The notes beneath the pieces are model-generated. The model was not told the DNA's origin, made no database searches, and worked only from the letters and a program-made list of their open reading frames with translations. From positions 186,001-250,000 of the forward strand of contig NZ_FOCL01000005.1 in assembly GCF_900110105.1 (NCBI RefSeq): a DNA stretch of 64,000 nt. Reading direction: 5' to 3'. The position numbers and the translations under genes were made by a program. The number at the start of each line of letters is the position of its first letter. The stretch's first letter is position 1. The stretch is from Mucilaginibacter gossypiicola. Its GTDB lineage: Bacteria > Bacteroidota > Bacteroidia > Sphingobacteriales > Sphingobacteriaceae. Of this stretch, positions 4,841 to 34,078 are shown in pieces.

Positions 4841-4971
4841 ATCTACCCATGGTATAAACTTAAAAACGAAACCGGAAGTGCAGCGAACACTCCCGGCCAG
4901 TGCCTGAGTTTATAACCGATATATAATTGATCCACAACGATAAACCAATTAAACCCAAACATTTCAAAGAT

Positions 4972-16443: not shown

Positions 16444-17676
16444 ATGACACCCAAACCTGAATTTACCGAAAAAAAATTCATCGTAACTTTTGTATTTGTT
16501 ACCTCGCTTTTTTTGATGTGGGGCTTGCTCCATTCCATGAGCGATGTGCTTAACAAACATTTTCAAACTGTACTTAACGTTACTAAGGCACAATCCGGCC
16601 TTATTCAGCTTTCGGTATTCGGTGCATATTTTGTGATGAGTATACCGGCCGGGTATTTTTTAAAAAAGTTTGGTTATAAGCCCGGTGTAATTTTAGGGCT
16701 GTTATTATTTGCTATTGGTACTTTCCTGTTCGTACCTGCTGCCAACGCCGCTTCATTCAACTTTTTCAGGGTAGCTCTCTTTATTTTGGGTTGTGGTATG
16801 GCCACACTCGAAACCGTGGCCCATCCCTTTGCCGCCGCACTTGGTGACCAGCGCACAAGTGATAGGCGGCTTAATTTTTCCCAGTCATTCAATGCCGTTG
16901 GTGCCATAATCGGTCCGGCCGTCGGTTCTTACTTTTTACTTCGTGCCACCTCCGGCCATTCAACAGATCTTTCATCGGTTAAATCATTGTATACGGCTAT
17001 CGGTTGCATTATACTGTTAATAGCCACCGCTTTTTTATTTGTAAAAGTACCTGTTTTGACAGATCCGCACGCCGCGTCCGCATCTGAAGAACCCGATGCA
17101 TTAAATATTGATACCGCTCCGTCAAAAAAGCTTTACGAGCACCGGCATTTTATATGGGCGGTAACAGCCCAGTTTTTTAACGTTGCCGCGCAAGGGGGCA
17201 CATGGGCATATTTCATTAACTATGGTCATGACGTAATGGGATTTAATGATCAGGCCGCAGGCAGCTATATGAGCATTTTTATGGCCATGATGGCAGCCGG
17301 CCGTTTTATAGGCACTTTCCTGATGCGCTTTATCGCCCCCAATAAACTACTCGCGGCATTTGCCGGCGGTAGCATTATCTCCTGTTTGATTGTTGCACAG
17401 GCCTGGGGATGGCCCTCTTACATCGCGTTGATGATGATCAATTTCTTTTTCAGCATTATGTTTCCTACAATTTTCAGTTTAGGGCTTAAAAACTTAGGCC
17501 GCCACACGCAACAGGCTTCATCATTCATATCGATGGGCGTGGTGGGCGGTGCCTTCTTCCCGCTTATTATGGGGCAGATTGCCAACCATGATGTGGCAAG
17601 GGCTTACTACCTGCCTATTATATGCTATGTAGTCATATTCCTGTTCGGGGCAAAATTTTATAAAGTTAAAAACTGA
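16444..17676 (+). CDS. MFS sugar transporter, FucP-like
   Basis: Inner-membrane proton-coupled permease of 410 residues with about twelve hydrophobic helices. The start FVTSLFLMWGLLHSMSDVLN and the segment QLSVFGAYFVMSIPAG match the FucP/glucose-galactose permease group of the major facilitator superfamily (usual motif there GxxFFxWG...DxLN). ETVAHPFAAALGD resembles the AxNPYxAALG helix of that group with changes. The substrate is a monosaccharide, L-fucose or a hexose; rhamnose is also possible given the enzymes around it. The next gene overlaps its stop codon (ATGA-type overlap), so they are translationally coupled. Confidence 0.88.
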   Translation: MTPKPEFTEKKFIVTFVFVTSLFLMWGLLHSMSDVLNKHFQTVLNVTKAQSGLIQLSVFGAYFVMSIPAGYFLKKFGYKPGVILGLLLFAIGTFLFVPAANAASFNFFRVALFILGCGMATLETVAHPFAAALGDQRTSDRRLNFSQSFNAVGAIIGPAVGSYFLLRATSGHSTDLSSVKSLYTAIGCIILLIATAFLFVKVPVLTDPHAASASEEPDALNIDTAPSKKLYEHRHFIWAVTAQFFNVAAQGGTWAYFINYGHDVMGFNDQAAGSYMSIFMAMMAAGRFIGTFLMRFIAPNKLLAAFAGGSIISCLIVAQAWGWPSYIALMMINFFFSIMFPTIFSLGLKNLGRHTQQASSFISMGVVGGAFFPLIMGQIANHDVARAYYLPIICYVVIFLFGAKFYKVKN

Positions 17677-19595
17677 TGAGGACAGGGCTGATCATATTTA
17701 TTTTATGGTTCTGCAGCCTATGCCGGTTTAGTTTATTGGCACAGGTAAAAATCGAGAAAAACGGTTATGATTTTTCATATCTCGACAGAAAAATAGCTGG
17801 CTGGGTTGATAGCGGCTACTATAAAGGGGCTTCGGTAATCGTTGTTAAAGATGATCGCGTTATACATAAACATTATTTTGGCAATTACGGCCCCGAGACG
17901 GTAGCCTACATAGCATCGGCAGGTAAGTGGCTTTCCGCTGCTACCATCGCGGCTGTAGTCGATGAAGGTAAACTGTCGTGGGATGACAAAGTTAGTAAAT
18001 GGCTGCCGGAATTTAAAGATCAAAAAGGGGAGGCTACCCTAAGGCAACTCTTTTCGCATACCGCTGGTTATCCCGACTATCAGCCGGCCGGGCGGCGTGC
18101 CGATAATTATCAAACCTTAAAGGAATCGATTTCGCATATAGTTGATTTGCCAGCCGATACGCTGGCGGGCGCTAAATTTAAATATGGAGGCCTTGCCATG
18201 CAGGTAGCAGGCAGGATGGCGGAGATAGCAACCGGAAAAGATTGGGAAACCATTTTTCAGGAAAAAATTGCCGGGCCATTAGGCATGAAGCTTACCCATT
18301 TTACACCGGTAAGCGATGTAGGCGGGCAAAACCCGATGCTGGGCGGAGGCGCGAGGGGCGGGCTTGATGATTATGCCCATTTTTTGAGCATGATCATGCA
18401 CAAGGGCGTGTATCAAGGCAAACGGGTACTTTCGTTAAAAGCGATACGGGAAATGCAGGCCGACCAGGTAGGGAAAGCAGAAATGAATGACCCGTATGTT
18501 GCTAATACCCGTGCAAGTGTACGTACCGATGTTTATGGCCTCGGCGAATGGAGAGAAGAAGTGGATGCCGATGGAAACGCGACACTGATCAGTAGCCCGA
18601 GCTGGGCCGGGGCCTATCCCTGGATCGATAAAAAAAATAACGTTTACGGCTTTATGCTTGCCCGCGTGGCTGAAATGAAAAACGGTTTTAATTCGTTTTT
18701 GGGCAGCCCCGTGCTACCGTTGTTAGTGAGAGATGTGCTGGCCAGGGCGAACCTTAAAAACACCAGACATGGTTACATCAAAACATCAGATGGTGCCACG
18801 CTTTACTACGAAGAAACAGGTAAAGGCGAACCGCTTATACTTTTACATGGCCACTCGTTTGACTGTACTGAATGGGATCCGCAATTTTTCGCGCTTGCAA
18901 AAAAGTACAGGGTGATCCGGTACGATCTCAGAGGATATGGCTGGTCGTCCATGCCATCTGAGAGTCAAAAAGCCCTGCATGCCGACGATCTGAAAAGTTT
19001 GATGGACCAGCTTCATATTGCCAGGGCACACATTGTCGGCCTGTCGCTGGGCGGATTTATCGTTACAGATTTTCTGACCTTGTATCCTGGCCGCCTACTT
19101 TCTGCTACTATGGCCAGTGGCGATATTTTTGACGTTCCCGGGCCTAGCAAGCCCTGGACCAACAGTGAAGCTGTTGCCCAGCGTGAAAAGATCAAAATAT
19201 GGCAGGCAAGAGGTGTGCAAAAAAGTAAACAAGAGTGGTTTAACGCGCTCACCAAACGCGGCGGAAAAAATATTGAAAGTTTGAGAGTCCCCGTCTGGAA
19301 TATGATCTACAAATGGGAGGCATGGCAACCGCAACACCTCGAGCCCCGGTTTTTACTTGGCAACGAGGCCGAAAGCAGGCTGATATCACAGAAAATAGAC
19401 GTACCGGTAATGGTGCTGACCGGCGAGTTTGACGCTAATCATCCGGATAAGTTATTAACTATCCTACCTGGGGCGAAGCAAGTGATCGTCCCTCATGCAG
19501 GGCATGTCAGTAATCTTGAAAACCCAAATGGGTTCAATCAAAAAATACTGGACTTTTTGAATACAATAAAGCTAAAAAAAGATGAAAAAAATTAG
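17676..19595 (+). CDS. Two-domain hydrolase: serine beta-lactamase-like domain fused to alpha/beta hydrolase
   Basis: A secreted 639-residue protein (signal peptide ending near LLAQ, 22-23). Residues about 30-355 form a class-C beta-lactamase/penicillin-binding-like domain with the SxxK motif SAGK (Ser81, Lys84) and Tyr170 (KYGG, where class C has YSN). Residues about 365-635 form an alpha/beta hydrolase with oxyanion motif LHGHS, nucleophile elbow GLSLGG (Ser457), Asp586 and His610, a complete triad. In a PUL both folds usually act as esterases, so a bifunctional deacylase for glycan decorations is my inference. No frameshift is seen, and the linker is short. It overlaps the MFS gene by one base and the GH127 gene by 14 bases. 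Confidence 0.85.
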   Translation: MRTGLIIFILWFCSLCRFSLLAQVKIEKNGYDFSYLDRKIAGWVDSGYYKGASVIVVKDDRVIHKHYFGNYGPETVAYIASAGKWLSAATIAAVVDEGKLSWDDKVSKWLPEFKDQKGEATLRQLFSHTAGYPDYQPAGRRADNYQTLKESISHIVDLPADTLAGAKFKYGGLAMQVAGRMAEIATGKDWETIFQEKIAGPLGMKLTHFTPVSDVGGQNPMLGGGARGGLDDYAHFLSMIMHKGVYQGKRVLSLKAIREMQADQVGKAEMNDPYVANTRASVRTDVYGLGEWREEVDADGNATLISSPSWAGAYPWIDKKNNVYGFMLARVAEMKNGFNSFLGSPVLPLLVRDVLARANLKNTRHGYIKTSDGATLYYEETGKGEPLILLHGHSFDCTEWDPQFFALAKKYRVIRYDLRGYGWSSMPSESQKALHADDLKSLMDQLHIARAHIVGLSLGGFIVTDFLTLYPGRLLSATMASGDIFDVPGPSKPWTNSEAVAQREKIKIWQARGVQKSKQEWFNALTKRGGKNIESLRVPVWNMIYKWEAWQPQHLEPRFLLGNEAESRLISQKIDVPVMVLTGEFDANHPDKLLTILPGAKQVIVPHAGHVSNLENPNGFNQKILDFLNTIKLKKDEKN

Positions 19596-21522
19596 AAAGT
19601 TCCTGTGCGCAGGGTTCCTGGCGTTGCCGATGGGAGTATCTGCACAATATGTTGGCCAGCATCTATCTGCTATAAAGGCCGAAACCAAAATTGATGTTAA
19701 GGCATACAGTTTTGACCTGCAGGATGTGAAATTGCTTGAAAGCCGTTTTAAGGACAACATGGACAGAGAAGGGCAATGGATGCTTTCGCTGCCTGTTGAG
19801 CGTTTGCTGCATAGTTTCCGGGTCAATGCAGGCATGCTAACAGATAAGAAAAGTAGCAAAACTAAAATGCCACAGCCACTTGGTGGCTGGGAGGCACTGG
19901 ATATGGAACTGAGGGGGCATAGCATTGGTCACCTGTTATCAGGCCTTTCATTTCAATACGCGTCAACCGGCAATATTGCTTTTAAAAAAAAGATAGATAG
20001 CCTGATTTCGGGCCTCGCCGAAGTACAGGCAACGCTGAACGAGGATGGTTATTTAAGCGCGTTTCCGCAAAACTATATCGACAGGAATATTAAAGGTAAA
20101 AGTGTTTGGGCACCCTGGTATACATTACATAAAATAGTGGCGGGGTTAATTGATGCTTACTTGTATGCGGGCGATACGCAGGCGCTTGATGTAGTTAATA
20201 AAATGGCTGTATGGGCGTATAAGAAGATAACACCTTTAAGTCAGGAACAATTGGCTTTGATGCTCCGGAATGAGTTTGGCGGGATGAACGAAGCCTGGTA
20301 TAACCTGTATGCCATTACCGGCAACCCGGAGCATAAAAAATTAGGCGACCTGTTTTATCACCATGCGGTACTGGATCCGTTAGCCGCCGGGCAGGATAAG
20401 CTTAATAAAATGCACGCCAACACAGCTATCCCCAAAATTACCGGTGAAGCCCGCGCCTACGAGTTGACAGGCGATGCAAAAGATAGATCAATTGTAAGCT
20501 ATTTCTGGAATAACGTTATGGAGAATCAAACCTATGTAATCGGCAGCAATAGTGACAAGGAACACTTTATTGCACCGGGCAAAATATCGGAATATATTAC
20601 GGGCTACACAGGCGAAACCTGCAATACCTACAACATGCTCAAGATAACCCGCCACCTCTTTACCTGGGATGCCGATGTGAAATATGCAGATTATTATGAG
20701 CGTGCTTTATACAATCATATTTTGGGCCAGCAGGACCCCAAAACCGGGATGGTGTGTTATTTTACACCGCTGAAAGCCGGGGCATTCCGGGTTTACAGCA
20801 CGCGCGACAGCTCGTTCTGGTGCTGTGTAGGTTCGGGCTTTGAAAGCCAGTCTAAATACGGAGAGGCTATCTACTATCATAACAACAAGGGTGTTTATGT
20901 AAACCTGTTCATCCCCTCTGTATTAACCTGGAAAGAAAAGGGCCTGAAGTTGAGGCAGGAAACCGCTTACCCCGAAGAGGCGACCACACGGCTAACCATC
21001 GATTCGGTAGGCGCGGAAAGTTTACCGCTTTATATTCGCTACCCCGGTTGGGCAAACAATGGTGTGGGCGTCAAAATCAATGGTGAAAACATCAAAGTTG
21101 TACAAACGCCGGGCAGTTATATAACGCTGAACCGTAAATGGAAAAAAGGTGATAAAGTAGAAATAAGCTACCCCATGACCCTGCACCTGGAAGCAACACC
21201 GGATGATCCTAAAATAGCCGCCGTAATGTACGGACCGATAGTGCTGGCCGGTGAAATGGGAACTGAAGCTATGCCCCCTCATGCTCCCTATCATGATGCA
21301 GCCGACCCCTACCAGTATTATGATTATAACTATAATATTCCGGCAAATCTTGTCCACAGCCTTAATATCAACAGCAGCAACATTTCCGAATTGATAAAAG
21401 CGGTGAAAGGCGGGGTACTTACCTTTAAAACCACCGGCACAACCAACGGAAAACCGGTAACCCTTGAACCTTACTATAACCTGCACCGTCAGCGCTACGT
21501 GGTGTATTGGGATTTGAATTAA
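19582..21522 (+). CDS. GH127/GH146-type beta-L-arabinofuranosidase (DUF1680)
   Basis: Exo-enzyme that releases beta-L-arabinofuranose (family knowledge; some relatives act on other sugars). Signal peptide 1-21 (GVSAQ), so periplasmic. An alpha/alpha barrel fills about 35-430. The zinc/thiolate site is complete: GETC with Glu345 and Cys347, and FWCCVGSG with Cys414 and Cys415, matching in pattern the Glu and three Cys of the characterised enzyme. C-terminal beta-sandwiches follow (about 440-640). Length 646 is usual. It overlaps the preceding hydrolase by 14 bases. It points to an arabinose-decorated substrate such as pectin side chains or arabinogalactan. Confidence 0.9.
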   Translation: MKKIRKFLCAGFLALPMGVSAQYVGQHLSAIKAETKIDVKAYSFDLQDVKLLESRFKDNMDREGQWMLSLPVERLLHSFRVNAGMLTDKKSSKTKMPQPLGGWEALDMELRGHSIGHLLSGLSFQYASTGNIAFKKKIDSLISGLAEVQATLNEDGYLSAFPQNYIDRNIKGKSVWAPWYTLHKIVAGLIDAYLYAGDTQALDVVNKMAVWAYKKITPLSQEQLALMLRNEFGGMNEAWYNLYAITGNPEHKKLGDLFYHHAVLDPLAAGQDKLNKMHANTAIPKITGEARAYELTGDAKDRSIVSYFWNNVMENQTYVIGSNSDKEHFIAPGKISEYITGYTGETCNTYNMLKITRHLFTWDADVKYADYYERALYNHILGQQDPKTGMVCYFTPLKAGAFRVYSTRDSSFWCCVGSGFESQSKYGEAIYYHNNKGVYVNLFIPSVLTWKEKGLKLRQETAYPEEATTRLTIDSVGAESLPLYIRYPGWANNGVGVKINGENIKVVQTPGSYITLNRKWKKGDKVEISYPMTLHLEATPDDPKIAAVMYGPIVLAGEMGTEAMPPHAPYHDAADPYQYYDYNYNIPANLVHSLNINSSNISELIKAVKGGVLTFKTTGTTNGKPVTLEPYYNLHRQRYVVYWDLN

Positions 21523-21537
21523 AAGGAGGGAACAGTA

Positions 21538-23163
21538 ATGTACAAAAACACTTTAATAATAGTACTTATCCTGCTTATTGGCCCCAGGCAGGGCTTCGCG
21601 CAGCTATCAAAAGTATGGGTTGCAGATAAAGGCAATGGAAGCTATCAGAACCCCATTATACATGCTGATTACTCCGATCCGGATGCTATCCGTGTAGGCG
21701 ATGATTATTATATGGTATCATCCAGTTTTAATTGTATGCCCGGCTTGCCTATTCTGCATTCAAAAGATCTGGTAAACTGGCAGCTGATCAATTATGCTTT
21801 GAAAAAACAGGAACCCGCCGCGGTTTATGATTCGCCGCAGCATGGCAAAGGCGTCTGGGCCCCCTGTATCCGATACCACAATAACGAGTTTTATATCTAT
21901 TACCCCGATCCGGATTATGGCGTTTATATGGTTAAAACTAAAAGTTTGATGGGGGATTGGGATAAACCTGTCTTGGTTTTGCCGGGCAAAGGTATTATTG
22001 ATCCGGCACCATTTTGGGATGATGATGGCAAAGCGTATTTGGGTGTAGCCTGGGCCGGAAGCAGGGCGGGCGTTAATAGCCTCATCACTATTTTCAGGAT
22101 GGATCAAAAAGGAACTGCCGTTACCGACGAAGGAATTCATGTTTACGACGGTCATGGTAAAAACCACACCATAGAAGGACCTAAAATTTATAAACGAAAA
22201 GGTTATTACTACATCCTTGCCCCGGCAGGCGGAGTAGCCACCGGTTGGCAGGTAGCTTTGCGTGCTGAAAATATTTATGGGCCTTATGAAGATAAGGTAG
22301 TGATGGACCAGGGCAAAACCGCTGTAAACGGTCCGCACCAGGGTGCGCTGGTGGAAACCCAAACAGGTGAGTCCTGGTTTATTCATTTTCAGGATAAGGG
22401 CGCCTACGGAAGGATAATTCATTTGGAGCCTGTAAAGTGGATAAACAATTGGCCGGTGATAGGCAATGATCCCGATGGCGACGGAAAAGGCGAACCTGTT
22501 ACCGTTTATAAAAAGCCAAATGCTGGCGCGGTATATCCGATAGTAACCCCTTCGGAAGACGATGAGTTTGACAGACACAAAATGGGCCTGCAATGGCAAT
22601 GGCATGCAAATCCCAAAATTCAGTGGAGTGCGCTTATCAAAGGATCAGGTTATTTGCGGCTATTCGCTTATCCGCAGGATAAAAACACGATGAACCTTTG
22701 GGCAACACCCAACCTCCTGCTGCAAAAACTGCCCGCGCCGGATTTTACAGCCACAACCAAATTAAAATACCAGGTTGAATGGGAAACAGGACAGGGTAAA
22801 CGAGCTGGTTTATTGATGATGGGCAATGATTACAGTTACATCGCGATATCCAAAGATGAACGGGGTTATAAATTAAACACAGTGGTTTGTAAAAACGCCG
22901 CCGATGGCACTGTCGAGGAAATTACCGATGAGAAAAGGATCAATATCAACGAGGTATACCTGCGTATCCGCGTAAGCGCTCCCGATGCCAAATGTGTTTT
23001 CAGTTACAGCGAAGATGGTATAAACTATAAGGCTATAGGCGAGGAATTTTTTGCTAAGCCTGATAAGTGGATAGGTGCAAAAGTGGGCCTGTTTTGTATA
23101 AGTACCGCTGATGTGCGCATGGGTGGGTATGCAGATTTCGATTGGTTTAGGGTAGATAAGTGA
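21538..23163 (+). CDS. Glycoside hydrolase family 43 with C-terminal beta-sandwich
   Basis: Five-bladed beta-propeller enzyme, alpha-L-arabinofuranosidase or beta-xylosidase type. Signal peptide to about residue 21 (GFAQ). The catalytic triad is visible: Asp47 (YSDPDA), Asp155 (IIDPAPFWDDDG) and Glu213 (TIEGPKIYK). Residues about 340-540 form a concanavalin-like C-terminal domain, as in longer GH43 members. The start is decided by an unusually strong ribosome binding site for this phylum, AAGGAGG, about eight bases upstream. It ends eight bases before the GH106 gene. Together with GH127 it suggests removal of arabinose side groups. Confidence 0.92.
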   Translation: MYKNTLIIVLILLIGPRQGFAQLSKVWVADKGNGSYQNPIIHADYSDPDAIRVGDDYYMVSSSFNCMPGLPILHSKDLVNWQLINYALKKQEPAAVYDSPQHGKGVWAPCIRYHNNEFYIYYPDPDYGVYMVKTKSLMGDWDKPVLVLPGKGIIDPAPFWDDDGKAYLGVAWAGSRAGVNSLITIFRMDQKGTAVTDEGIHVYDGHGKNHTIEGPKIYKRKGYYYILAPAGGVATGWQVALRAENIYGPYEDKVVMDQGKTAVNGPHQGALVETQTGESWFIHFQDKGAYGRIIHLEPVKWINNWPVIGNDPDGDGKGEPVTVYKKPNAGAVYPIVTPSEDDEFDRHKMGLQWQWHANPKIQWSALIKGSGYLRLFAYPQDKNTMNLWATPNLLLQKLPAPDFTATTKLKYQVEWETGQGKRAGLLMMGNDYSYIAISKDERGYKLNTVVCKNAADGTVEEITDEKRININEVYLRIRVSAPDAKCVFSYSEDGINYKAIGEEFFAKPDKWIGAKVGLFCISTADVRMGGYADFDWFRVDK

Positions 23164-23170
23164 GGATACA

Positions 23171-26100
23171 ATGGAGAGACGACAATTTATAAAAAACACT
23201 TTCCTTACTTCGGCAGGATTGATAGCTGTACCCTATATCAATTGGGTGTTGGGAGATACCCTGCCTGATAAAGATATGGAAGATCTGTTTATAAAGCCAC
23301 CTGCTAACGCCCGGCCATGGGTTTTTTATATGTGGATGAACGGCAACATTACCAAAAATGGTATTACGCTCGACCTGGAAGCCATGAAGCGTATGGGCAT
23401 TGGCGGCTTTATCAATTTTAATGCGGCAGTAGGCATTCCGCGCGGCCCGGTTGATTACGCGCATGAGGATTGGACTGAAGCCGTAGTTCACACTGCTGCT
23501 GAGTGCAGCCGGTTGGGTATTGATATGTTTATGCATAATTCTCCCGGCTATTCGGGTTGCGGAGGGCCATGGATCAGTCCCGAAATGAGCATGCAACAAC
23601 TGGTGTGGACTGAAACAATTGCAACTGCCGGTTCACAACCATTGCAGTTGAAATTGCAGCGCCCGTACGCAAAGCTGCATTATTACCGTGATGCTATGGT
23701 GATCGCTTATCCGTCCCTTCCGCAGGAAAAATACGTGATGAAGGATCGGTTAAAAAATGTTTGGCTGAATGGTACTGAGATAGATATTGATGTTGTTACC
23801 GACGGGGATCCCGAAACGAAGATCAGGCTGGAGGCATCACAAACATTAGTGTTTGAATTTACCGAAATTTATGAGTGCAGTGCCATCAGTGTCTATCGCA
23901 AGCCGGAAGTACCGCATGACCTTTTTGATGGGCCCCGCGATCACCCGCCGCTGTTATTGCTCGAATCCTCGCAGGATGGGGTTTCATACACTACCATCGG
24001 CCATATCGCCTGCTGCGAATTGCGGGCAATGGATACACCATCTGCCTTAAGTTTCGATTCGGTATCGGCAAAATTCTATCGCTTAACATCGCCAACACCA
24101 ACCTGGATCTCGGAAGTGCAATTGCATAGCGGTCCACGGTTAGGCGGCTGGCCCGGGAAAACAAACCATACCCATGGCAGCACAGGCGGTAATACACCTG
24201 CTATAACACCTGATATGATTATTAACCCAGATCAGGTTGTTGATATCAGCACTTATATGGATGCTCAGGGAGATCTTAAATGGCAGGCACCAATAGGAAG
24301 ATGGACTATTTTGAGGATAGGCCACACCACTACCGGTGAAGAAAACGCCGCACATCCCGACGCTGGGAAGGGCCTTGAGACAGATAAATTCAACAAACAA
24401 GCACTTGATACCCATTTCGCTAAATTTCTTGATCCCTTGTTAGGGAAATTAAAACCTCACATTGGCAAAGGCTTTAAGGGTTTTACGGTGGACAGCTGGG
24501 AAGCCGGTAAACAAAACTGGACGATCAATTTTCCCGAAGAATTTAAAAAGCTCATGGGTTATGAAATTGTACCGTGGATGCCTGCTTTAACCGGGCGTAT
24601 TGTTGGCTCGGTAGATGATACGGAAGGTTTTTTATGGGATATCAGGAAAGCCCACGCCAACCTGCTGGCCGAGAATTTTTACGGGTATTATCAGCAATGC
24701 TGCCATAAACGCGGTATTCAATTTAATGCCGAACCCTACGGAGATGGTGTGTTTGACAGCCTGCAGGCGGGCCAATACCTGGATACACCGATGGCCGAGT
24801 TCTGGACACGTTATATTTACGGCAGCGACGTAACATCCAAACAAGCTGCATCTATAGCGCATGTTTATGGCAAAACTGTAGCAGCGGCGGAGGCTTATAC
24901 CGCGATGCCGGCAAACTCAAAATGGGTTGATTATCCTTATTCGCTGAAAGCGGAGGGCGATTATTTTTTTACGCTTGGTATCAATAGGCTGGTGTTTCAC
25001 ACATTTGTGCATCAGCCTTACCATTCCGCAAAACCTGGCATGACCATGGGGCCTTTTGGCTGTCACTTCGACCGGAATAATACCTGGACAGATCAAGCCT
25101 ATGGCTGGATAAAATATATTCAGCGATGCCAATACATCTTACAGCAAGGTTTATTTGTGGCCGATGCCTGCTATTTTAAAGGTGATTCTCCCGAATCTGG
25201 AGTGCCGGATACCTATCAATTTATGCCCGAAGGATATGTAGCGGATGTAATAGGCGCGGATGCGCTTAACAGGTTTAAGATAAAAGACGGCCGGATTGTA
25301 CTGCCCGATGGCATGATGTACCGGGTTTGTATACTGGCCAAACTGGAAAGGCTCCTTCCCGATACCTTAAACAAATTGAAAAAACTGGTTGAAGAGGGTA
25401 TGGTATTGCTGGTATCAAAGAAGCCTTCAAAAGCTTATGGCCGTACCGCAGATAAGGTAATACAGGGTAGCATTAAGCAACTTTTCGGTAATATTAACGG
25501 AGCAGAATTTAAGGTTAATAAGCTGGGAAAAGGATGCGTGATCTGGACTGAAAATCTCTTAACTGTGTTCAGCGACTTATCTATTACCGCCGATTTTAAA
25601 TATTCGGCAGAAAATCCGGATGCCGCGATCCACTATGTGCATAAAAAAACAGCTGGCGGCGATTATTATTTTATAAGTAACCATCGCCGCCGGTACGAGA
25701 AGGTTACCTGTACTTTCAGGGTAACCGGCATGCAGCCGGAACTTTGGGACCCGGAAACCGGTGAATTCTTTGACCTGCCTTTGTTTTCTTTTACCAGGGA
25801 TCAAACCAGTATCGCTATTGAATTGGCACCCGCCGGCTCCGCGTTCATCATTTTCAAAAAGAAAGTGGTTAAACAGGGTTACACAAGTATTATTAAAGAC
25901 GGAAAGCCTTACCTGGATACTCAGGCCTCCCCGGCATTGTCACCTGAAAACAGCAGCGTGGTTAATGATTTTTCAATAAGTGTCTGGGTCAGGCCGGATT
26001 CGTTTGCACAGGAAGGTAAAAGCATGATTTTTCACCCTGTTTCGGGCGAACAGCTTTTTGGCAGGGGGCATGCGGCCATCGGCCTGGGGGCCGGGCAGAA

Positions 26101-27106
26101 CGGGGTAAGGATATATGAAAAACAGAAAGGCAAAGCGAAAGTAGTATTATTTGACGATGAACCTGTACAGGGCTGGACTCACCTCATGTTGGTTTATAAA
26201 AACGGCGCTCCCAATTTGTACATCAATGGTAAATTGAGTAAAGCAAACCCCTCCTCCGGTTTAACTGTCCATGCTTTTTTACGTGCGCCCGTTGAGCAGG
26301 ATCATTTGTCGAGCTATTTTGAGGGCAATCACACCGCGCTGCAGTTGTTCCCGATGGTACTTACAGAACAGCAGGTTTATAGGATCTACCAACAGGGATT
26401 ACCTGAGCCGGAACGCCCCATAGCCATTAATTTAAAACGATTGAACGGCGATCGCATGGAAGCATTGGTGTTTAACAACGGTACCTATCGTATTAAAGGT
26501 AAAAGCGATGTAAAAGAGTTTAGCGTTCGTAACGCGAAGTCCATTACTTTAACAGGTCCCTGGAAGCTTGAATTTCCCGGACAGGCGCATCTCGCCGATG
26601 GCATAGAGCTGGAAAAGCTGATTTCCCTGAGGCTGCACCCCGATTTTGATATCCGGCATTTTTCGGGGACGGTTATCTACAAAAAAACAATTATGCTGAC
26701 CAGTAATGATCTTCAGGACAGCCACCGCATCCTGATAGATCTTGGCCGCGTCGAGGTTGTTGCCGAATTATGGGTAAACGGTAAGCTGATCAAAATTCTA
26801 TGGAAAGAGCCCTTTGAAACCGACATAACCGACACCCTAAAAAAAGGATCCAACCAATTACAAATTAATGTTACTACGCTTTGGGTAAACCGCCTTATAG
26901 GGGATGAGTATTTTCCTGAAGAAAATACCTACAGCGCTGATAATTATATTGAAAAGTTACCCGGGTGGTTCATCAATGACCAGCCTAAGCCGGGCAGGCG
27001 TAAAACGTTTGCTACCTGGAAAAATTTTGACAAAACATCTCCATTAGTGGAGGCCGGTTTGCTTGGGCCTGTTAAATTGATCACCGCTATAAAGAAAATT
27101 ATTTGA
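23171..27106 (+). CDS. GH106-type alpha-L-rhamnosidase with LamG-like insertion
   Basis: Very large (1311 residues) member of the family that removes terminal alpha-L-rhamnose. It starts MERRQFIKNTFLTSAG, a twin-arginine-like leader, so export of the folded protein is likely. The catalytic part spans about 35-910 (MWMNGNITKNGITLDLEAMK, FTVDSWEAG, FNAEPYGDG, HTFVHQPYHSAKPG). Residues about 930-1075 look like a laminin-G/concanavalin domain (FSISVWVRPD, GWTHLMLVYKNG, LYINGKL) inserted before the C-terminal beta-sandwich (about 1110-1305, AELWVNGKLIK). The insertion explains why it exceeds the usual length of about 1100. It may bind glycan. It lies in the middle of the long operon. Confidence 0.85.
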   Translation: MERRQFIKNTFLTSAGLIAVPYINWVLGDTLPDKDMEDLFIKPPANARPWVFYMWMNGNITKNGITLDLEAMKRMGIGGFINFNAAVGIPRGPVDYAHEDWTEAVVHTAAECSRLGIDMFMHNSPGYSGCGGPWISPEMSMQQLVWTETIATAGSQPLQLKLQRPYAKLHYYRDAMVIAYPSLPQEKYVMKDRLKNVWLNGTEIDIDVVTDGDPETKIRLEASQTLVFEFTEIYECSAISVYRKPEVPHDLFDGPRDHPPLLLLESSQDGVSYTTIGHIACCELRAMDTPSALSFDSVSAKFYRLTSPTPTWISEVQLHSGPRLGGWPGKTNHTHGSTGGNTPAITPDMIINPDQVVDISTYMDAQGDLKWQAPIGRWTILRIGHTTTGEENAAHPDAGKGLETDKFNKQALDTHFAKFLDPLLGKLKPHIGKGFKGFTVDSWEAGKQNWTINFPEEFKKLMGYEIVPWMPALTGRIVGSVDDTEGFLWDIRKAHANLLAENFYGYYQQCCHKRGIQFNAEPYGDGVFDSLQAGQYLDTPMAEFWTRYIYGSDVTSKQAASIAHVYGKTVAAAEAYTAMPANSKWVDYPYSLKAEGDYFFTLGINRLVFHTFVHQPYHSAKPGMTMGPFGCHFDRNNTWTDQAYGWIKYIQRCQYILQQGLFVADACYFKGDSPESGVPDTYQFMPEGYVADVIGADALNRFKIKDGRIVLPDGMMYRVCILAKLERLLPDTLNKLKKLVEEGMVLLVSKKPSKAYGRTADKVIQGSIKQLFGNINGAEFKVNKLGKGCVIWTENLLTVFSDLSITADFKYSAENPDAAIHYVHKKTAGGDYYFISNHRRRYEKVTCTFRVTGMQPELWDPETGEFFDLPLFSFTRDQTSIAIELAPAGSAFIIFKKKVVKQGYTSIIKDGKPYLDTQASPALSPENSSVVNDFSISVWVRPDSFAQEGKSMIFHPVSGEQLFGRGHAAIGLGAGQNGVRIYEKQKGKAKVVLFDDEPVQGWTHLMLVYKNGAPNLYINGKLSKANPSSGLTVHAFLRAPVEQDHLSSYFEGNHTALQLFPMVLTEQQVYRIYQQGLPEPERPIAINLKRLNGDRMEALVFNNGTYRIKGKSDVKEFSVRNAKSITLTGPWKLEFPGQAHLADGIELEKLISLRLHPDFDIRHFSGTVIYKKTIMLTSNDLQDSHRILIDLGRVEVVAELWVNGKLIKILWKEPFETDITDTLKKGSNQLQINVTTLWVNRLIGDEYFPEENTYSADNYIEKLPGWFINDQPKPGRRKTFATWKNFDKTSPLVEAGLLGPVKLITAIKKII

Positions 27107-27149
27107 TAAAAAACCTTTGGACGGTTTAAGTATAACTAACATATTTAAG

Positions 27150-29153
27150 ATGAGAAAAATACACCAGATTTTGCCCTGTTTAATGTTGGTAATTGCCGCA
27201 GTTATGGCAAAAGCCCAGCCTTTTGTGCACCCCGGGCTATTGCAGGGCAAAGCAGACCTTGAGCGGATAAAAACAGCGATCAGTAATAAGGAAGAGCCTG
27301 TTTATACTGCTTTCGTAGAGTTTCAGGAGCACCCGCAATCGCAGGACAATTACCAGATGAAGGGACCAATGGCTATGGTTGGCCGCAACCCCACGGTGGG
27401 TCAATCCGTTTATGATGCCGATGCCAACGCCGCTTACCAAAATGCGCTCATGTGGGCACTTACGGGTAAAGCAGACTACGCCTTAAAAGCAAGGGAAATT
27501 ATCAACGCATGGTCATCTACATTAAAATCGATAACCGGCAGGGATGCCGTTTTGATGGCCGGGCTTGGTCCCTTTAAAATGGTAAATGCGGCAGAATTAC
27601 TTTTATATACTAATGCAAACTGGCCCATAGCGGAAGTGGAGCTTACAAAAAGACATTTTAAGGGAGTGATTTACCCGGTAATTAAAGATTTTGCCCCTTT
27701 TGCTAACGGTAATTGGGATTCGGCCGCTATGAAAACAATGATGGCTATTGCTGTTTTTTGCGATGACAGGGCCATGTTTGAACGTGCATTGAACTATTAC
27801 GTTGATGGTGCGGGGGATGGACGTCTAACAAATTATATCATTAACCAGGATGGAGAATGCCAGGAAAGCGGACGAGACCAGGGGCATACACAATTAGGTA
27901 TTGCTCACCTCGGCGATTGCGCGGAGATGGCGTGGAACCAGGGACTTAACCTGTATGCGTATGCGGATAACCGTTTATTACAAGGATTTGAATATACAGC
28001 AAAATACAACCTGGGTATGGATGTGCCTTACATTGCTGAGCTTGACAAAACAGGAAAATACCTGCATAAGGAAATTTCTGCGGAGTCAAGAGGGAAACTC
28101 AGATCTGTGTATGAGCAGATCTATAATCACTACGTTAAAAGAATGGGTTTAAAAGCGCCATATACAGGGCAGGCTGCCGCCCGCATCCGGCCCGAGCCCC
28201 AGGGAGGGCCAGGTGCAGACCATATAGGCTTTGGAACTTTACTTTATACAAGAGCGGAGGGTAGCGGGGTTGACGTAAGAAACAAACCGGCAGCCCCTGC
28301 CGGTTTGTTAATAAAAACTGACCCAAAAGGTCGTAATGCTTTGACATGGATAGAACCGGCAGGGGCTACCGGTTATTTTGTAAAACGTGCCATAAAACAG
28401 GGGGGGCCATATATTACCATATCGGCAAAAATTAAAGGAGGGCATTATATTGACAGTAAAACCATTGGAGGGAAACTGTATTTCTATACAGTTTGTGCAG
28501 TTAATAGCAATGGTAAAAGTAAGGATGCCTATCCCGCCGGTGTTATTTCGGCTTTGCCAACCGGCTGGCATCAACCAGCGGTAGGGGCGGAGAACTCTTT
28601 TGGCAACGGCCAGTTTGATGATAAACAATTAACCATTGAAAGTGCCGGAACGGGTGTAGATAGCAGCGCCGATTATTATCATTTTGTTTATAAAGCCTTG
28701 GATGGTAATGGTACTATTTCGGCCGGATACGTGCCGCAGGTAAGCTCTCAGTTTTCATCGTTTGGGCTCGTTATCCGTAACGGAACAGGCAAAAACAGCC
28801 CGGAAGTAATGCTGATGGTAGCTCCGCTATCATCGGGGCAGGTTGAGGCACCCAAATGGTGCATAAAGTTACTCTCTCGTAACGCGGGTGATGTTGTTCA
28901 AAGTAGCCCGACATTGTTGCCGCTTACAGATCCGATAGTGACATTTAGCAGGTTGACAGGTGATTTTTATTTCCGCCTCACGCGTAAAGGTGATGAATTT
29001 ACGGGTGCTTATTCAACCGATAACAAATCATGGATAAATATAGATAGTATCACGCTGCACCTTAACAAAGCAGCAACGGCTGGGCTGTTTGCCGCCTCTG
29101 GTGTACAGGGAATTGCAACCAGGGTAAAGTTTAACGAGGTTAACATTAATTGA
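27150..29153 (+). CDS. Alginate-lyase-family protein with FnIII-like and C-terminal beta-sandwich domains (paralogue 2)
   Basis: Second of three related lyase-like proteins. I choose the ATG at 27150 because it gives a clean signal peptide (MRKIHQ to AKAQ, residue 23); an upstream in-frame TTG at 27117 does not. FVHPGLLQG starts the mature protein. The toroid (about 25-370) has NGNWDSAAMK and ECQESGRDQGHTQLG with Arg242 and His246, the most canonical set of the three. A fibronectin-III-like domain follows (about 385-465) and a concanavalin-like domain (about 470-665). It is not a lipoprotein, unlike the other two. It is likely a lyase acting on uronate-containing chains, feeding the GH88 encoded first in this operon. 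Activity and target are inference. Confidence 0.78.
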   Translation: MRKIHQILPCLMLVIAAVMAKAQPFVHPGLLQGKADLERIKTAISNKEEPVYTAFVEFQEHPQSQDNYQMKGPMAMVGRNPTVGQSVYDADANAAYQNALMWALTGKADYALKAREIINAWSSTLKSITGRDAVLMAGLGPFKMVNAAELLLYTNANWPIAEVELTKRHFKGVIYPVIKDFAPFANGNWDSAAMKTMMAIAVFCDDRAMFERALNYYVDGAGDGRLTNYIINQDGECQESGRDQGHTQLGIAHLGDCAEMAWNQGLNLYAYADNRLLQGFEYTAKYNLGMDVPYIAELDKTGKYLHKEISAESRGKLRSVYEQIYNHYVKRMGLKAPYTGQAAARIRPEPQGGPGADHIGFGTLLYTRAEGSGVDVRNKPAAPAGLLIKTDPKGRNALTWIEPAGATGYFVKRAIKQGGPYITISAKIKGGHYIDSKTIGGKLYFYTVCAVNSNGKSKDAYPAGVISALPTGWHQPAVGAENSFGNGQFDDKQLTIESAGTGVDSSADYYHFVYKALDGNGTISAGYVPQVSSQFSSFGLVIRNGTGKNSPEVMLMVAPLSSGQVEAPKWCIKLLSRNAGDVVQSSPTLLPLTDPIVTFSRLTGDFYFRLTRKGDEFTGAYSTDNKSWINIDSITLHLNKAATAGLFAASGVQGIATRVKFNEVNIN

Positions 29154-29161
29154 TAACTAAC

Positions 29162-30808
29162 ATGAAGATCATCAGGTATATAATCCTTTTTTTAATCTTT
29201 TTGGGTTTTGCGTTCCGGGTTCATGCCCGGGTGTGGCAATGGTCGACCTTAATAAAAAACGCAAACGAGAACGCCGGACAGGCAAGGGCCTTTTTATGGA
29301 TCCCGCCAACTTGTAAGCAGATAAAGGCTGTCATATTCGCGCAAAACAATATGGAGGAAGAAAGCATATTGACGGATTCGAAATTCAGACGGGAGATGGG
29401 CAAATTGGGTATTGCCGAGGTCTGGGCGAGTCCGGCCTTTAACCTTAAGTTTTTATTTAACCAGGGGGCAGGCGAACAGTTTAACGCCATGATCACAGAT
29501 CTGGCCGATATTTCCGGTTACAATGAATTAAAAACAGTGCCGGTTATCCCCATAGGGCATTCGGCAGCAGCCAGTGCTCCTTATTATTTCGGGGCATGGA
29601 ACCCAAAGCGTACGCTGGCCTGTATCTCGGTAAGCGGGCAATGGCCCTATGTGCGGAATGTTTTCGCTCCAGATATCTGGCGCAAAGATCAAGGCCTTGA
29701 TTTTATTCCCTGCCTGGAAACCATGGGCGAGTATGAAGCCGCCGCTACCTGGAGTGACGAAGGATTGAACGAGCGGCAGGAACACCCGTTTTTGCCATTA
29801 AGTATGTTATCAAACCCGGCCCAGGGGCATTTTGCCGCCACACAGGAAAAGATCGATTACCTGGCTTTTTATATTAAAAAAGCTATCAAATACAGGTTGC
29901 CAAAACGAGTTCCGGTTGGAAGCGCTCCGGATTTGGTGCCTGTCGATCCCACAAAAACAGGCTGGCTAGTTGATAAATGGCGGTACGATAGGCCGCCGTT
30001 AGCAGAACCTGGGCCTGTAGGCCAATACAAAGGCGATGTTGCCAACGCGTTTTGGTATTTTGATGAAGAAACCGCTAAGGTAACCTCAGCCTATCAGGCA
30101 GCGCACCGCAATCAAAAGCCGCAGTTGATAGGTTACCTGCAAAACGGAAAAATGACCGAGCAGCGAAACACCCACCAGCAGGTTAACCTGAAATTTGAGC
30201 CGGAAGCAGATGGTATCACCTTTAAACTCCATGCCGCCTTTTATGATACGGTTGCCGGCGGAAGCCCGCGCCTGCCTGTTTGGGCAGGCATGCCGGTTGG
30301 CTCATTTATAGGGCATGCTTCCGGAGGTATTCCGATAAGCATAGATTGCATAACGGGGCCGGTTGTTAAAATAGATGATTCTACTTTCCGTGTAAACCCA
30401 CGTGCGGGTTATTGGGAAAACCCGCATAGTTATGAACTTTGGTTTGCGGCCACCCAGCCCGGCGATACATATTATAAACCGGCAGTACAACAAGCATTAA
30501 TGGTTGTACCACCGCGTAACACCGTTGGTAGAGAGCAGCACATCAACTTTTTGCCCATATCCAACCAAAAGCAAAACTCGCAAGGTATTAAATTGAGCGC
30601 GACATCGGATGCGGGCGTGCCCGTAGGCTTTTACGTGTTGGAAGGTCCGGCAGAGTTATCGGGCGATAAGTTGAATTTAACCGTTATCCCGCCCCGAAGC
30701 CGTTTCCCGGTAAAGGTAACCTTGGTTGCCTGGCAATATGGCAATAGCAGCGAACCCAAATTACAGACAGCAGCGCCTGTTACACAAACTTTCTTTATCC
30801 AAAAATAA
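29162..30808 (+). CDS. Putative secreted esterase, alpha/beta hydrolase fold (tandem copy 1)
   Basis: I do not recognise a named family. The start at ATG 29162 gives a signal peptide (MKIIRY to VHA); the in-frame TTG at 29150 overlaps the previous stop. Residues about 25-255 fit an alpha/beta hydrolase: AFLWIPPTCKQIKAVIFAQNN (beta strands), PIGHSAAASAPY with nucleophile Ser134 in a GHSA elbow, and a candidate His223 (AQGHFAAT). The acid residue is not clear. Residues about 260-545 are beta-rich, with ANAFWYFDEETAK and FEPEADGITFKL. The next gene encodes a clear paralogue one base downstream. Position in the PUL suggests deacetylation or demethylation of the glycan, which is inference. Confidence 0.65.
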   Translation: MKIIRYIILFLIFLGFAFRVHARVWQWSTLIKNANENAGQARAFLWIPPTCKQIKAVIFAQNNMEEESILTDSKFRREMGKLGIAEVWASPAFNLKFLFNQGAGEQFNAMITDLADISGYNELKTVPVIPIGHSAAASAPYYFGAWNPKRTLACISVSGQWPYVRNVFAPDIWRKDQGLDFIPCLETMGEYEAAATWSDEGLNERQEHPFLPLSMLSNPAQGHFAATQEKIDYLAFYIKKAIKYRLPKRVPVGSAPDLVPVDPTKTGWLVDKWRYDRPPLAEPGPVGQYKGDVANAFWYFDEETAKVTSAYQAAHRNQKPQLIGYLQNGKMTEQRNTHQQVNLKFEPEADGITFKLHAAFYDTVAGGSPRLPVWAGMPVGSFIGHASGGIPISIDCITGPVVKIDDSTFRVNPRAGYWENPHSYELWFAATQPGDTYYKPAVQQALMVVPPRNTVGREQHINFLPISNQKQNSQGIKLSATSDAGVPVGFYVLEGPAELSGDKLNLTVIPPRSRFPVKVTLVAWQYGNSSEPKLQTAAPVTQTFFIQK

Positions 30809-30809
30809 C

Positions 30810-32420
30810 ATGACACGTAAAATACTGACGCTTATTATTCTTGTTTGTACAATGCAGGCGGCTGCTGCTCAATACCATCCGGAAGATCATGTCTACCAGT
30901 ATAGCGTTAAGGTGGGGAGCCGTGATGCTTACCTGTGGATCCCGCCGAAATGTAAAAGTGTAAGGGGAGTGATCATCGCCCTGTCAAACCTGCTCGAACG
31001 CAACTGGCTGGAAGCCCCGGTGATGAGGCGTACCGCGGCTAAAATTGGTTTGGCCATCATATGGATAGGGCCTGCGGAAAAAGGCGATGAGTTGTTTACT
31101 GCTGATATGAAACCCGGTATGGATAAGGTATTTCAAAAAATGATGGACGATCTGGCTGTCGAATCGGGTTATAGTGAATTGAAAACCGTGCCTGTCATCC
31201 CCACAGGGCACTCGGCAAACGGCCATTTTGCCTGGACATTCGCTAGTGCTTTCCCTGAGCGTACTATAGCAGCGATACCCGTTAAAACTGTTCCTTATCC
31301 TGATAGTTTAAGGTTTAAAAACATTCCCGTTTGTTACATCGTAGGACAAACGACGGAATGGCCGCAGTTCCGGGTGCCAGATCCCGCGACCACACCCGGC
31401 GAACGCGATTTTTATTGGCCGGTTGTTAAAAACACGGCATTAGCGCTCCGTGCCAAAGACCCTGAAAATCTTGTGTCGGTAGTAACTGATCCCGGTGGGG
31501 GGCACTTCGACTGGTCAGATAAGCTATCGGATTTCATGGTCCTTTTTATCCGGAAAGCTTGCCATTACCGTCTCCCCGATAGCGGGGAAACAACTCTTAA
31601 GCCCATTACAAAGGAAAAAGGGTGGATGACCGGTACAGGTGGCATGGTAAAAGATGAGTTTAATGCCGCACCATATGGGCTGTTTAAAGGTGGAGCTTTA
31701 AAGGGGTACTGGTTTTTCGACAAGCAAATCGCTGAAGCGGCTGTAGCATTTGAAGGTGACCGGGTAGCAAGAGAGAAGCAAATGCCAACCTTTTTACAGG
31801 ATGGAAAGCCGTTGCCGGTAGCTAAACTGGGTTATGCCGCGCTAAAGTTTGAACCGGAAAACGATGGCGTTTCTTTTAATTTGACAGGCGGTTTCTTAAC
31901 CGCGCTACCGCCCGAACTCATTGGAGCTGGCAATCCATTGGGCCACGCACAGGGTCCGGTTCGTTTTAAAATTATCAAGGGACCCGCTATTCAAGCCGGT
32001 AACACTTCGTTTAAATTACAGTTTGACCGCGGTGCCACAGGCGGGGAACTATGGCTGATGGCCGAACATCCCGGAAATTATCAATACCGGCATGCCGTTC
32101 AACCCGGAATGATGCGCATTCCTTCAAAACTTACGGATGGCACGGCACAAAATATAAGTTTTGACACCATACCGGATATAAACATTCATACCAGATCAGT
32201 TATGCTTAATGCTTCGTCAACCTCAGGGTTGCCCGTTAGTTATTATGTAACTGCCGGACCCGCTTATATTGCTGGTAACAAATTGAAAATTACCCAGGTA
32301 CCGCCCAAAAGCAGGATGCCGGTTAAAGTTACCGTTATAGCCTATCAATGGGGAAAAATGAATGGTTTAAAGGTTGCCAGCGCCATACCCATTATCCGCA
32401 CTTTTTATATAAAGAGATAA
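30810..32420 (+). CDS. Putative secreted esterase, alpha/beta hydrolase fold (tandem copy 2)
   Basis: Paralogue of the gene just upstream, with one base between them. The ATG at 30810 gives a signal peptide ending AAAQ (residue about 20); the longer frame from 30726 would overlap the first copy and lacks a leader. Shared features are AYLWIPPKCKSVRGVIIA, ELKTVPVIPTGHSANGHFAW with Ser135, and GGGHFDW with His232. The beta-rich C-terminal half contains KGYWFFDKQIAE and FEPENDGVSFNL, and both copies end with the same PP(R/K)SR(F/M)PVKVT segment. The residues after the nucleophile differ (GHSAA versus GHSAN), so the copies have probably diverged in specificity. It is the last gene before a terminator. 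Confidence 0.65.
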   Translation: MTRKILTLIILVCTMQAAAAQYHPEDHVYQYSVKVGSRDAYLWIPPKCKSVRGVIIALSNLLERNWLEAPVMRRTAAKIGLAIIWIGPAEKGDELFTADMKPGMDKVFQKMMDDLAVESGYSELKTVPVIPTGHSANGHFAWTFASAFPERTIAAIPVKTVPYPDSLRFKNIPVCYIVGQTTEWPQFRVPDPATTPGERDFYWPVVKNTALALRAKDPENLVSVVTDPGGGHFDWSDKLSDFMVLFIRKACHYRLPDSGETTLKPITKEKGWMTGTGGMVKDEFNAAPYGLFKGGALKGYWFFDKQIAEAAVAFEGDRVAREKQMPTFLQDGKPLPVAKLGYAALKFEPENDGVSFNLTGGFLTALPPELIGAGNPLGHAQGPVRFKIIKGPAIQAGNTSFKLQFDRGATGGELWLMAEHPGNYQYRHAVQPGMMRIPSKLTDGTAQNISFDTIPDINIHTRSVMLNASSTSGLPVSYYVTAGPAYIAGNKLKITQVPPKSRMPVKVTVIAYQWGKMNGLKVASAIPIIRTFYIKR

Positions 32421-32827: not shown

Positions 32828-34078
32828 ATGAAAAAAAAATTGTTTTATGCCGGTATTGTGTTCGTTTTATTTACCGGCTGCGCTAAAGTGAAAAATCAGA
32901 CAGTTGAACAGCCCGCCGGACACAATGACGGCAAATTGAAAACCACGTTAATGACTTTCGTGCACCCGGGAACCGTACTTACCAAGCCGCAATTGCAATA
33001 CGCGTATGCGCAGGCAATTGCCAATGTTGAGCCATGGAAAACAACCTTTGCCAACTTTCAATCTAATTATGCATCCTTTTTATCAAGTGCTTACACCGCC
33101 CATGCGCATGCCCAGGTTGGCAGGAACTTGTACAAGGCTGATTATGAAAATGATGCTATGGCAATGTTTGTTAATGGCGTAATGTGGAACATGACAGGAC
33201 AAAGCCAATACGCCGATAAGGTGGTTCAACTTTTGGATGCCTGGACATCAACATGCACATCCATTCAATATCCCGATAATGACTGGCAATTATGTAACGG
33301 GTATGGTCTGCATTTTATGATTTACGGTGCCGACCTGATTTATAATTACCCGGGTTTTACATCGGTAAAAAAAACAAACGCTAAAAATCTTTTTACCATT
33401 TTTTATAACTATTACGCAACTTATGCAACGGCAAATGGCAAAACTAACCCGTTTGTAGTTAGTGGATGGCCGTCATGGGGTTCGAGCGCGGGCAAATTTA
33501 TTATGGCCTACGGAATATTCTGTGAAAATCAAACTGCCTATGACTTATCGCTCGAATATTTCAGCAGAACCGCTGCAAACGGTGCCGATAACGGCACAAA
33601 TGTAACCGCATTTCTGTCAACAGGTCAGCCGGTTGAGTGCGGACGCGACCAGTATTATGCGCAACTGAACCTGGCCAGCTTTTTGGAATGGGCACAAATG
33701 GCATATAACCAGGGAAGCACGGCTTTGTACGATGCAAGAAGCGGTGTAATTGGCAAGGCAATGGAATACGTTGCTAAATATAATCTTGGCAACAGTGTGA
33801 CCTGGACTTCAGTTACCCCCGCAACGCCAATCTGGGCGGTAACACCGCCCATTACAGCTATTTCTACTGCCAACCGTGGCAATTACCGGCCCATCTGGTA
33901 TATGGCTTATAATTATTACCACCGGTATCGTGGTTTAAGTATGCCTTACACTGAGCAGGTGATCGGGAGCCATGTAAATGAAGGTCAAACAGCCACTATT
34001 ACCGATGAAGTGGGATATGGCAGTTTGTTTTATTGCAACTCATCACAAACTGTTGTTGCTCCACCCTATACCTGGTAA
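32828..34078 (+). CDS. Alginate-lyase-family lipoprotein, single toroid domain (paralogue 3)
   Basis: Third and shortest (416 residues) of the lyase-like paralogues. Lipoprotein leader with Cys18 (FTGC), then FVHPGTVLTKPQ and the helical toroid to the end, with no accessory domains. PVECGRDQYYAQLN gives Arg273 and Tyr277 at the site where paralogue 2 has Arg and His. The NGxWD motif of the other two is replaced by GWPSWGSSAG, so this copy is the most divergent and may cut another linkage or only bind. It has its own long upstream gap and a strong terminator behind it, so it is probably transcribed alone. Fold call is good; activity uncertain. Confidence 0.72.
   Translation: MKKKLFYAGIVFVLFTGCAKVKNQTVEQPAGHNDGKLKTTLMTFVHPGTVLTKPQLQYAYAQAIANVEPWKTTFANFQSNYASFLSSAYTAHAHAQVGRNLYKADYENDAMAMFVNGVMWNMTGQSQYADKVVQLLDAWTSTCTSIQYPDNDWQLCNGYGLHFMIYGADLIYNYPGFTSVKKTNAKNLFTIFYNYYATYATANGKTNPFVVSGWPSWGSSAGKFIMAYGIFCENQTAYDLSLEYFSRTAANGADNGTNVTAFLSTGQPVECGRDQYYAQLNLASFLEWAQMAYNQGSTALYDARSGVIGKAMEYVAKYNLGNSVTWTSVTPATPIWAVTPPITAISTANRGNYRPIWYMAYNYYHRYRGLSMPYTEQVIGSHVNEGQTATITDEVGYGSLFYCNSSQTVVAPPYTW

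Follow-up and report, generated by a model that had tools for sequence, protein, structure and literature searches.

A tandem pair of putative secreted serine esterases from an unnamed alpha/beta-hydrolase family in a polysaccharide utilisation locus of Mucilaginibacter gossypiicola

Two adjacent genes, here copy 1 and copy 2, in a 64,000-nucleotide stretch of the Mucilaginibacter gossypiicola genome (NCBI RefSeq assembly GCF_900110105.1, contig NZ_FOCL01000005.1, positions 186,001 to 250,000 of the forward strand; hereafter the window) probably encode secreted serine esterases of an unnamed alpha/beta-hydrolase family that would act on a uronic-acid-rich polysaccharide. An original prediction, made from the sequence alone, had read them as tandem, secreted-looking paralogues one base apart that belong to a carbohydrate esterase family without a name, and this is still the best reading in light of the predicted alpha/beta-hydrolase fold, a conserved Ser-His-Glu set and the location in a polysaccharide utilisation locus. 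The products, of 548 and 536 residues, are encoded on either side of a single spacer base (30809), and both begin with a stretch that resembles a signal peptide by eye; 183 of 576 positions are identical (32%, E value 8e-88 in a single comparison), a likeness that this E value places well above chance.

Results

Relatives are encoded in 185 of 217 candidate stretches from GTDB contigs, and the best 80 of these 185 were kept, giving the 79 loci to which all later locus counts refer. Of the 97 full-length-like stretches found at first, four repeated the window's own two copies in whole or truncated form; the alignment used throughout holds 95 full-length rows, which are related and not independent, and incomplete members such as L043, L067 and single genes of L027 (the second) and L033 (the first) stand outside it. 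The family spans Bacteroidota, Verrucomicrobiota, Planctomycetota, Lentisphaerota and Armatimonadota, and its distribution is sparse: at E ≤ 1e-50, 17 of the 149 genomes searched in the window's genus and 16 of the 251 in its family gave matches, and a class-level search matched 20 of 395 genomes at E ≤ 1e-5, 12 of them in the C-terminal module only. Members also occur on three plasmid records, all labelled 'hypothetical protein'; the family patterns matched nothing among viral contigs, and the only hit among phage records was a fragment spanning 28% of the query, from a record that carries no annotation.

In agreement with the original prediction, profile searches matched no named esterase family, such as those of carbohydrate esterase families CE1 and CE7. 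Neither copy was assigned to a family by Pfam or NCBIfam, none of the 95 catalytic halves matched a Pfam alpha/beta-hydrolase model or any NCBIfam model (E ≤ 0.01), and the C-terminal halves (n = 76) gave no credible match to Pfam. Five isolated hits were judged to be chance: DUF4179 for copy 1 (E 0.09, below the cut-off), the 7v0i glucanase for copy 2 (E 0.78), Glutaredoxin and LcnG-beta (Pfam, one of 95 catalytic halves each) and ALMS_repeat (Pfam, one of 76 C-terminal halves). Titles and opening abstract lines in the literature held no recognisable description of the family, which does not by itself show its absence from print.

Structure predictions cover copy 1. An AlphaFold model built with the 95 rows (mean predicted local distance difference test score (pLDDT) 93.0, predicted template modelling score (pTM) 0.92) presents residues ~20-247 as an alpha/beta hydrolase, and by this predicted fold copy 1 falls within that superfamily. 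Foldseek placed esterases in the top rows for the catalytic half (S-formylglutathione hydrolase 6jzl, E 1.3e-7; Est1E 2wtm, E 2.4e-7), and VIA returned Z 14.4 both to antigen 85C (4qdz, 207 residues aligned, 3.5 Å) and to Est1E (2wtm, 186 aligned, 2.9 Å), with 871 of 1000 chains at Z ≥ 8 and the best 50 rows, which span residues 19-312, being alpha/beta hydrolases by name.

In the model a candidate Ser, a candidate acid after strand 7 and a candidate His follow one another in the canonical order of a serine triad, each in the loop after its strand and each conserved; the GHSA elbow with its serines (Ser134 in copy 1, Ser135 in copy 2) and the candidate histidines (His223, His232) lie where they had been predicted. 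Across the 95 rows His133, His223 and Glu66 are invariant (95 each), Ser134 and Ala135 occur in 94, Asn63 and Glu192 in 93 and Glu190 in 90. At least one Glu follows strand 7 in every row (Glu190/Glu192 pair: EE 88, QE 4, DE 1, EK 1, EN 1), and Glu192 appears the better candidate for the acid, Glu190 being less likely because it is replaced by Gln in four rows that retain Glu192. The suggestion that the residue after the elbow differs between the copies had to be shifted by one position: Ala directly follows Ser in both copies, and it is the next residue that differs (Ala136 in copy 1, Asn137 in copy 2), in a column that is variable family-wide (A42, M19, L11, C8, N6 and Y5 of 95, others rarer). 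Column 137 of the alignment is Ala in 88 rows and Gly in five, and the elbow reads GHSAxA.

Copy 2 has Gln180 at the position of copy 1 Glu190 and belongs to subfamily C (defined below), which sits on a long branch of 0.98 changes per column; both features could point to a decayed or non-catalytic relative. Against such decay, which we hold to be highly improbable, the Asn63, Glu66, Ser134, Glu192 and His223 columns are conserved in all five aligned subfamily C rows, whose acid loop reads [GA][EQ]TTEW, so that the second Glu is the constant one, and further C copies retain GHSAN, TTEW and GHFDW. Several genomes of the window's genus also carry C copies, which in three of them (L136, L137, L138) are the genome's only match at E ≤ 1e-50, and a further C copy occurs in a Puia bin, where the gene is cut by the contig end.

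Departures from the pattern occur elsewhere in the family. A Pontibacter member (L044, 9983-11644) combines Ser134Ala with Asn63Asp and is the sole row without Ser134; it is possibly inactive as an esterase, judging by these substitutions. Two divergent relatives from the window's genus carry the elbows DHSV (L139) and GESG (L140) and retain GHL/GHF and the -EW loop.

The beta-rich half described in the original prediction is present in the copy 1 model at residues ~250-548, and Foldseek matched a separate model of residues 250-548 (pLDDT 93.4, pTM 0.83) to cadherin repeats, with a best E of 1.3e-6. This half, left unplaced in the original prediction, can be assigned in part, with a last module (residues 456-548) that resembles cadherin/Big-type immunoglobulin (Ig) domains: in VIA it scores Z 8.5 against the phi29 capsid (8f2n, 84 aligned, 3.4 Å), 8.3 against SraP (4m03, 80 aligned, 2.2 Å), 7.9 against Big_2-CBM56 (7r3t, 77 aligned, 2.2 Å) and 7-8 against cadherins. 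As few chains reach Z 8 (10 of 999), these matches indicate a common Ig-like arrangement and not a close relative. The first module (residues ~319-454) is perhaps Ig/cadherin-like, a weak placing because it was found only in two-module alignments with high root-mean-square deviation. Known folds outside the VIA lists may match as well. By sequence, the last module recurs in larger multidomain proteins that carry PKD, CARDB, CBM_3, Polysacc_lyase and sorting domains, through which no Pfam model could be tied to this stretch; as for its role, the Ig-like C-terminal part of the pair probably serves as a spacer or for binding.

Comparison with known esterases

The family profile was searched against the PDB sequence set at E ≤ 1. 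We take the BT1017-type pectin methylesterase to be carbohydrate esterase family 19 (CE19), and for CE19 and BT1017 no profile match was found in that set, in which the presence of 6GOC was not checked. The CE15 enzymes are serine esterases with an alpha/beta fold and a Ser-His-Glu set, as predicted for the present family; their elbow is GCSRxG, unlike the GHSA found here, where His precedes Ser in 95 of 95 rows and Ala follows it in 94; no solved CE15 chain appeared among the profile matches. The best fold matches of the catalytic half, the feruloyl esterase Est1E (2wtm) and the S-formylglutathione hydrolases, share ~10-15% identity with it in structure alignments and presumably lack the Ig-like half. 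The only enzyme with a weak profile match is esterase 713 (1qlw, E 0.33), around the elbow (HSxxxx[YF]PxxxAAxNP); we take its acid to be Glu230 after strand 6, and the column aligned with that residue holds His in 46, Ser in 33, Lys in 15 and Asp in one of the 95 rows of this family.

BT1017 (structure 6GOC) is described as a Bacteroidota serine esterase with a signal peptide, an alpha/beta-hydrolase fold and an extra C-terminal domain (PMC7939467). The present family is alike in being a serine esterase candidate with a signal-peptide-like start, an alpha/beta-hydrolase fold and an added C-terminal part, and unlike in its GHSAxA elbow, Glu as acid candidate and Ig-like half. The CE15 glucuronoyl esterases act on uronate esters, and some are found in Bacteroidota pectin loci (PMC10807430).

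Subfamilies and origin of the pair

Residues 159-162 divide the 95 rows into subfamily A (GQWP, 32 rows), subfamily B (GDAP or GDSP, 54), subfamily C (T-type, 5) and four others, and the split is clean because the four labels need four changes on the tree, with a minimum of three. Copy 1 belongs to a 27-row group (99% support in the Shimodaira-Hasegawa-like approximate likelihood ratio test, SH-aLRT) and copy 2 to a separate 5-row group (100%). Forcing the 10 Sphingobacteriaceae A rows and the five C rows to be monophyletic costs 75 log-likelihood units (approximately unbiased (AU) test, p-AU 0.00194), to be read with the long branch to C, the quick tree and the naming of the group after the tree was seen. 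The tree and this test, subject to the long-branch caveat, reject a local duplication among the Mucilaginibacter and Pedobacter rows as the origin of the pair, which the original prediction had called duplicated; the separate groups and the AU result instead suggest that the copies are probably two old paralogues kept together. Around the predicted pocket they differ after strand 6 (GQWP in copy 1, KTV in copy 2), two places after the Ser (Ala, Asn) and at GHFA versus GHFD, and they are probably old complementary variants that would take different ester positions or kinds.

Two or three members share a locus in 10 of the 79 loci, and the same type is never doubled; L043 was excluded as an eleventh case, being apparently one gene split over two frames. 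Five loci combine A with C (L015, L016, L018, L020 and L027, the second gene of the last being cut by the contig end and typed by its elbow only), three combine A with B (L017, L019, L034), L063 pairs B with a divergent member, and L033 (3-4683), in a Capsulimonas bin of the Armatimonadota, has three consecutive genes of types A, B and C-like, the first truncated at the contig edge. For the absence of same-type pairs, a rough shuffle of the labels returned 0.0006, with labels entered by hand and kinship ignored. The window's own genome has two A genes, at separate loci, and C stands away from an A copy in G675, G698 and G711.

These mixed-type loci suggest a division of labour, and they fit the hypothesis that the pair handles two decorations on the same glycan. 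We tentatively put forward a more ambitious version, which seems to us possible though somewhat doubtful: that this is a founding carbohydrate esterase family whose complementary subfamilies A (GQWP), B (GDAP/GDSP) and C (GHSAN, KT after strand 6), combined and, within the 79 loci, never doubled, would each remove a different ester of one poorly known uronate-rich polysaccharide, the A-B-C triple of the Armatimonadota representing the full toolkit. If the division of labour is real, every subfamily would leave a different ester untouched.

As a separate observation, in L034 of Bacteroides cellulosilyticus a gene (6091-8451) for a fusion of GH28 (rhamnogalacturonidase-like) and Abhydrolase_6 lies between the A and B members.

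Genomic neighbourhood and proposed function

Neighbour counts cover 70 loci, each having four or more called genes; the nine of the 79 loci below that size were dropped. The counts use plain open reading frame (ORF) calls and clusters named from single representatives, and some contigs are short. The glycoside hydrolase (GH) family GH97 is present in 33 of the 70 loci, GH88 in 25, PF05426-type genes in 21, and GH28, GH127 and heparinase II/III-type genes in 17 each; as raw counts, a lyase-type gene occurs in 44 and a lyase-type gene, GH88 or GH28 in 52. KduI (over its cut-off) lies two genes from the member of a Flavobacterium locus (L052), and in Bacteroides loci UxuA and a D-mannonate oxidoreductase are encoded within a few genes of members. 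Between B and A loci, heparinase-type genes (14/38 vs 2/24, p 0.017), short-chain dehydrogenase/reductase (SDR) genes (11/38 vs 1/24, p 0.020) and GH28 and GH127 (each 13/38 vs 2/24, p 0.032) differ, only a hint because the p values are uncorrected; the other 11 of 15 neighbour-by-subfamily tests gave p > 0.05. In Bacteroides finegoldii (L123), the family member and GH127 are separated by genes for DUF3037 and a HipA-family kinase (13646-14789), which run in the opposite direction.

Several observations weigh against reading the family as polysaccharide esterases. Eighteen of the 70 loci have neither a lyase-type gene nor GH88 nor GH28, 26 have no lyase-type gene, and the neighbour counts stand without a random-locus baseline for other genomes. 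The assignment of the acid is weakened by the two rows without Glu192 (Lys and Asn, both divergent), which retain Glu190. The structure lists include peptidases, a dehalogenase and antigen 85 acyltransferases, and since these non-esterases share them, the fold does not settle the chemistry. With dipeptidyl and prolyl peptidases and antigen 85 rows at Z 13-14, the pair could have another alpha/beta-hydrolase activity in the locus, as a peptidase freeing glycan from protein or as an acyltransferase; this seems improbable to us, given that what recurs beside the family is lyase-type and glycoside hydrolase genes and that the Foldseek top rows are esterases.

For the esterase reading we envisage a mechanism in which Ser134 would attack the carbonyl carbon of a polysaccharide ester, with His223 as base backed by Glu192 and the oxyanion held by Asn63 and the backbone of Ala135, after which water would release the acyl-enzyme. 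Ester removal, before or after lyase cleavage, would let the lyases and GH88 encoded alongside act. The substrate is probably a polysaccharide rich in uronic acids, glucuronate and/or galacturonate, that would also contain rhamnose and arabinose; a gum, a mucilage or a rhamnogalacturonan-like polymer are guesses as to its identity.

Among ester types, O-acetyl appears most likely, followed by an ester of the uronate carboxyl. This second case, in which a methyl ester, or an ester to another sugar or an aromatic alcohol, would be cleaved in the manner of CE15 or BT1017, strikes us as less than likely. The lyase-type, GH88 and GH28 neighbours, with KduI and UxuA near some members, imply that the uronate itself may carry the ester, and BT1017, a pectin methylesterase and also an alpha/beta hydrolase, is reported to be required for rhamnogalacturonan-II use (PMC7939467). 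Against this case, only two solved chains match the family profile at E ≤ 1, namely 1qlw (0.33) and 5tuc (0.98).

Should the esterase reading hold, it would supply a family labelled 'hypothetical protein' with a mechanism, a set of catalytic residues and a code for its subfamilies. A likely de-esterification step would be added to loci that contain GH97, GH88, GH127 and genes of the uronate-lyase type, and the whole would point to an acidic, esterified polysaccharide that soil and gut bacteria use.

Home locus

The pair stands between two PF05426 genes (Table 1), a family with 11 matches in the window's 8.2-Mb genome. A third gene of the esterase family in this genome (C11:665440) likewise has a PF05426 neighbour on one side, and a match to a heparinase II/III C-terminal model on the other.

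Table 1. Features of the window, with candidate catalytic residues of the pair and genes of the home locus.
Feature	Position in window	Strand	Basis
Copy 1 (subfamily A), alpha/beta hydrolase with beta half, 548 aa, ATG start	29162..30808	+	ORF, copy 1 model, tree
Copy 1 Asn63, candidate oxyanion-hole residue after strand 56-61	29348..29350	+	93/95 rows; putative role
Copy 1 Ser134, candidate nucleophile, GHSA elbow after strand 128-133	29561..29563	+	94/95 rows, model
Copy 1 Glu192, candidate triad acid, loop after strand 184-189	29735..29737	+	93/95 rows; putative role
Copy 1 His223, candidate triad histidine after strand 213-218	29828..29830	+	95/95 rows, model
Copy 1 residues ~319-454, first beta module, perhaps Ig/cadherin-like	30116..30523	+	Two-module alignments only
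Copy 1 residues 456-548, last beta module, cadherin/Big-like Ig	30527..30805	+	VIA
Copy 2 (subfamily C), paralogue of copy 1, 536 aa, ATG start	30810..32420	+	ORF, pairwise comparison, tree
Copy 2 Asn60, counterpart of Asn63	30987..30989	+	Alignment
Copy 2 Ser135, candidate nucleophile	31212..31214	+	Sequence
Copy 2 Glu183 (in TTEW), counterpart of Glu192	31356..31358	+	Alignment
Copy 2 His232, candidate triad histidine	31503..31505	+	Sequence, alignment
SusC	4927-8469	+	Domain match
SusD	8481-10226	+	Domain match
Alginate_lyase-family (PF05426) protein 1	10304..12022	+	Domain match
GH88	12378..13595	+	Best solved match 3wiw (GH88), then unsaturated glucuronyl hydrolases
GH97	13598..15532	+	Domain match
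Beta-lactamase-like and Abhydrolase_1 fusion, second, named-type candidate esterase of the locus	17676..19595	+	Domain match
GH127-type protein	19582..21522	+	Best solved match 5opj
GH43	21538..23163	+	Domain match
GH106	23171..27106	+	Domain match
Alginate_lyase-family protein 2, ends 8 bases upstream of copy 1	27117..29153	+	Domain match
Alginate_lyase-family protein 3, 407 bases downstream of copy 2	32828..34078	+	Domain match

The home locus also holds ROK and MFS genes. On the minus strand at 35743-36741 of the window, a 332-aa protein with no Pfam match at E ≤ 1e-4 is encoded next to a GH29-type gene.

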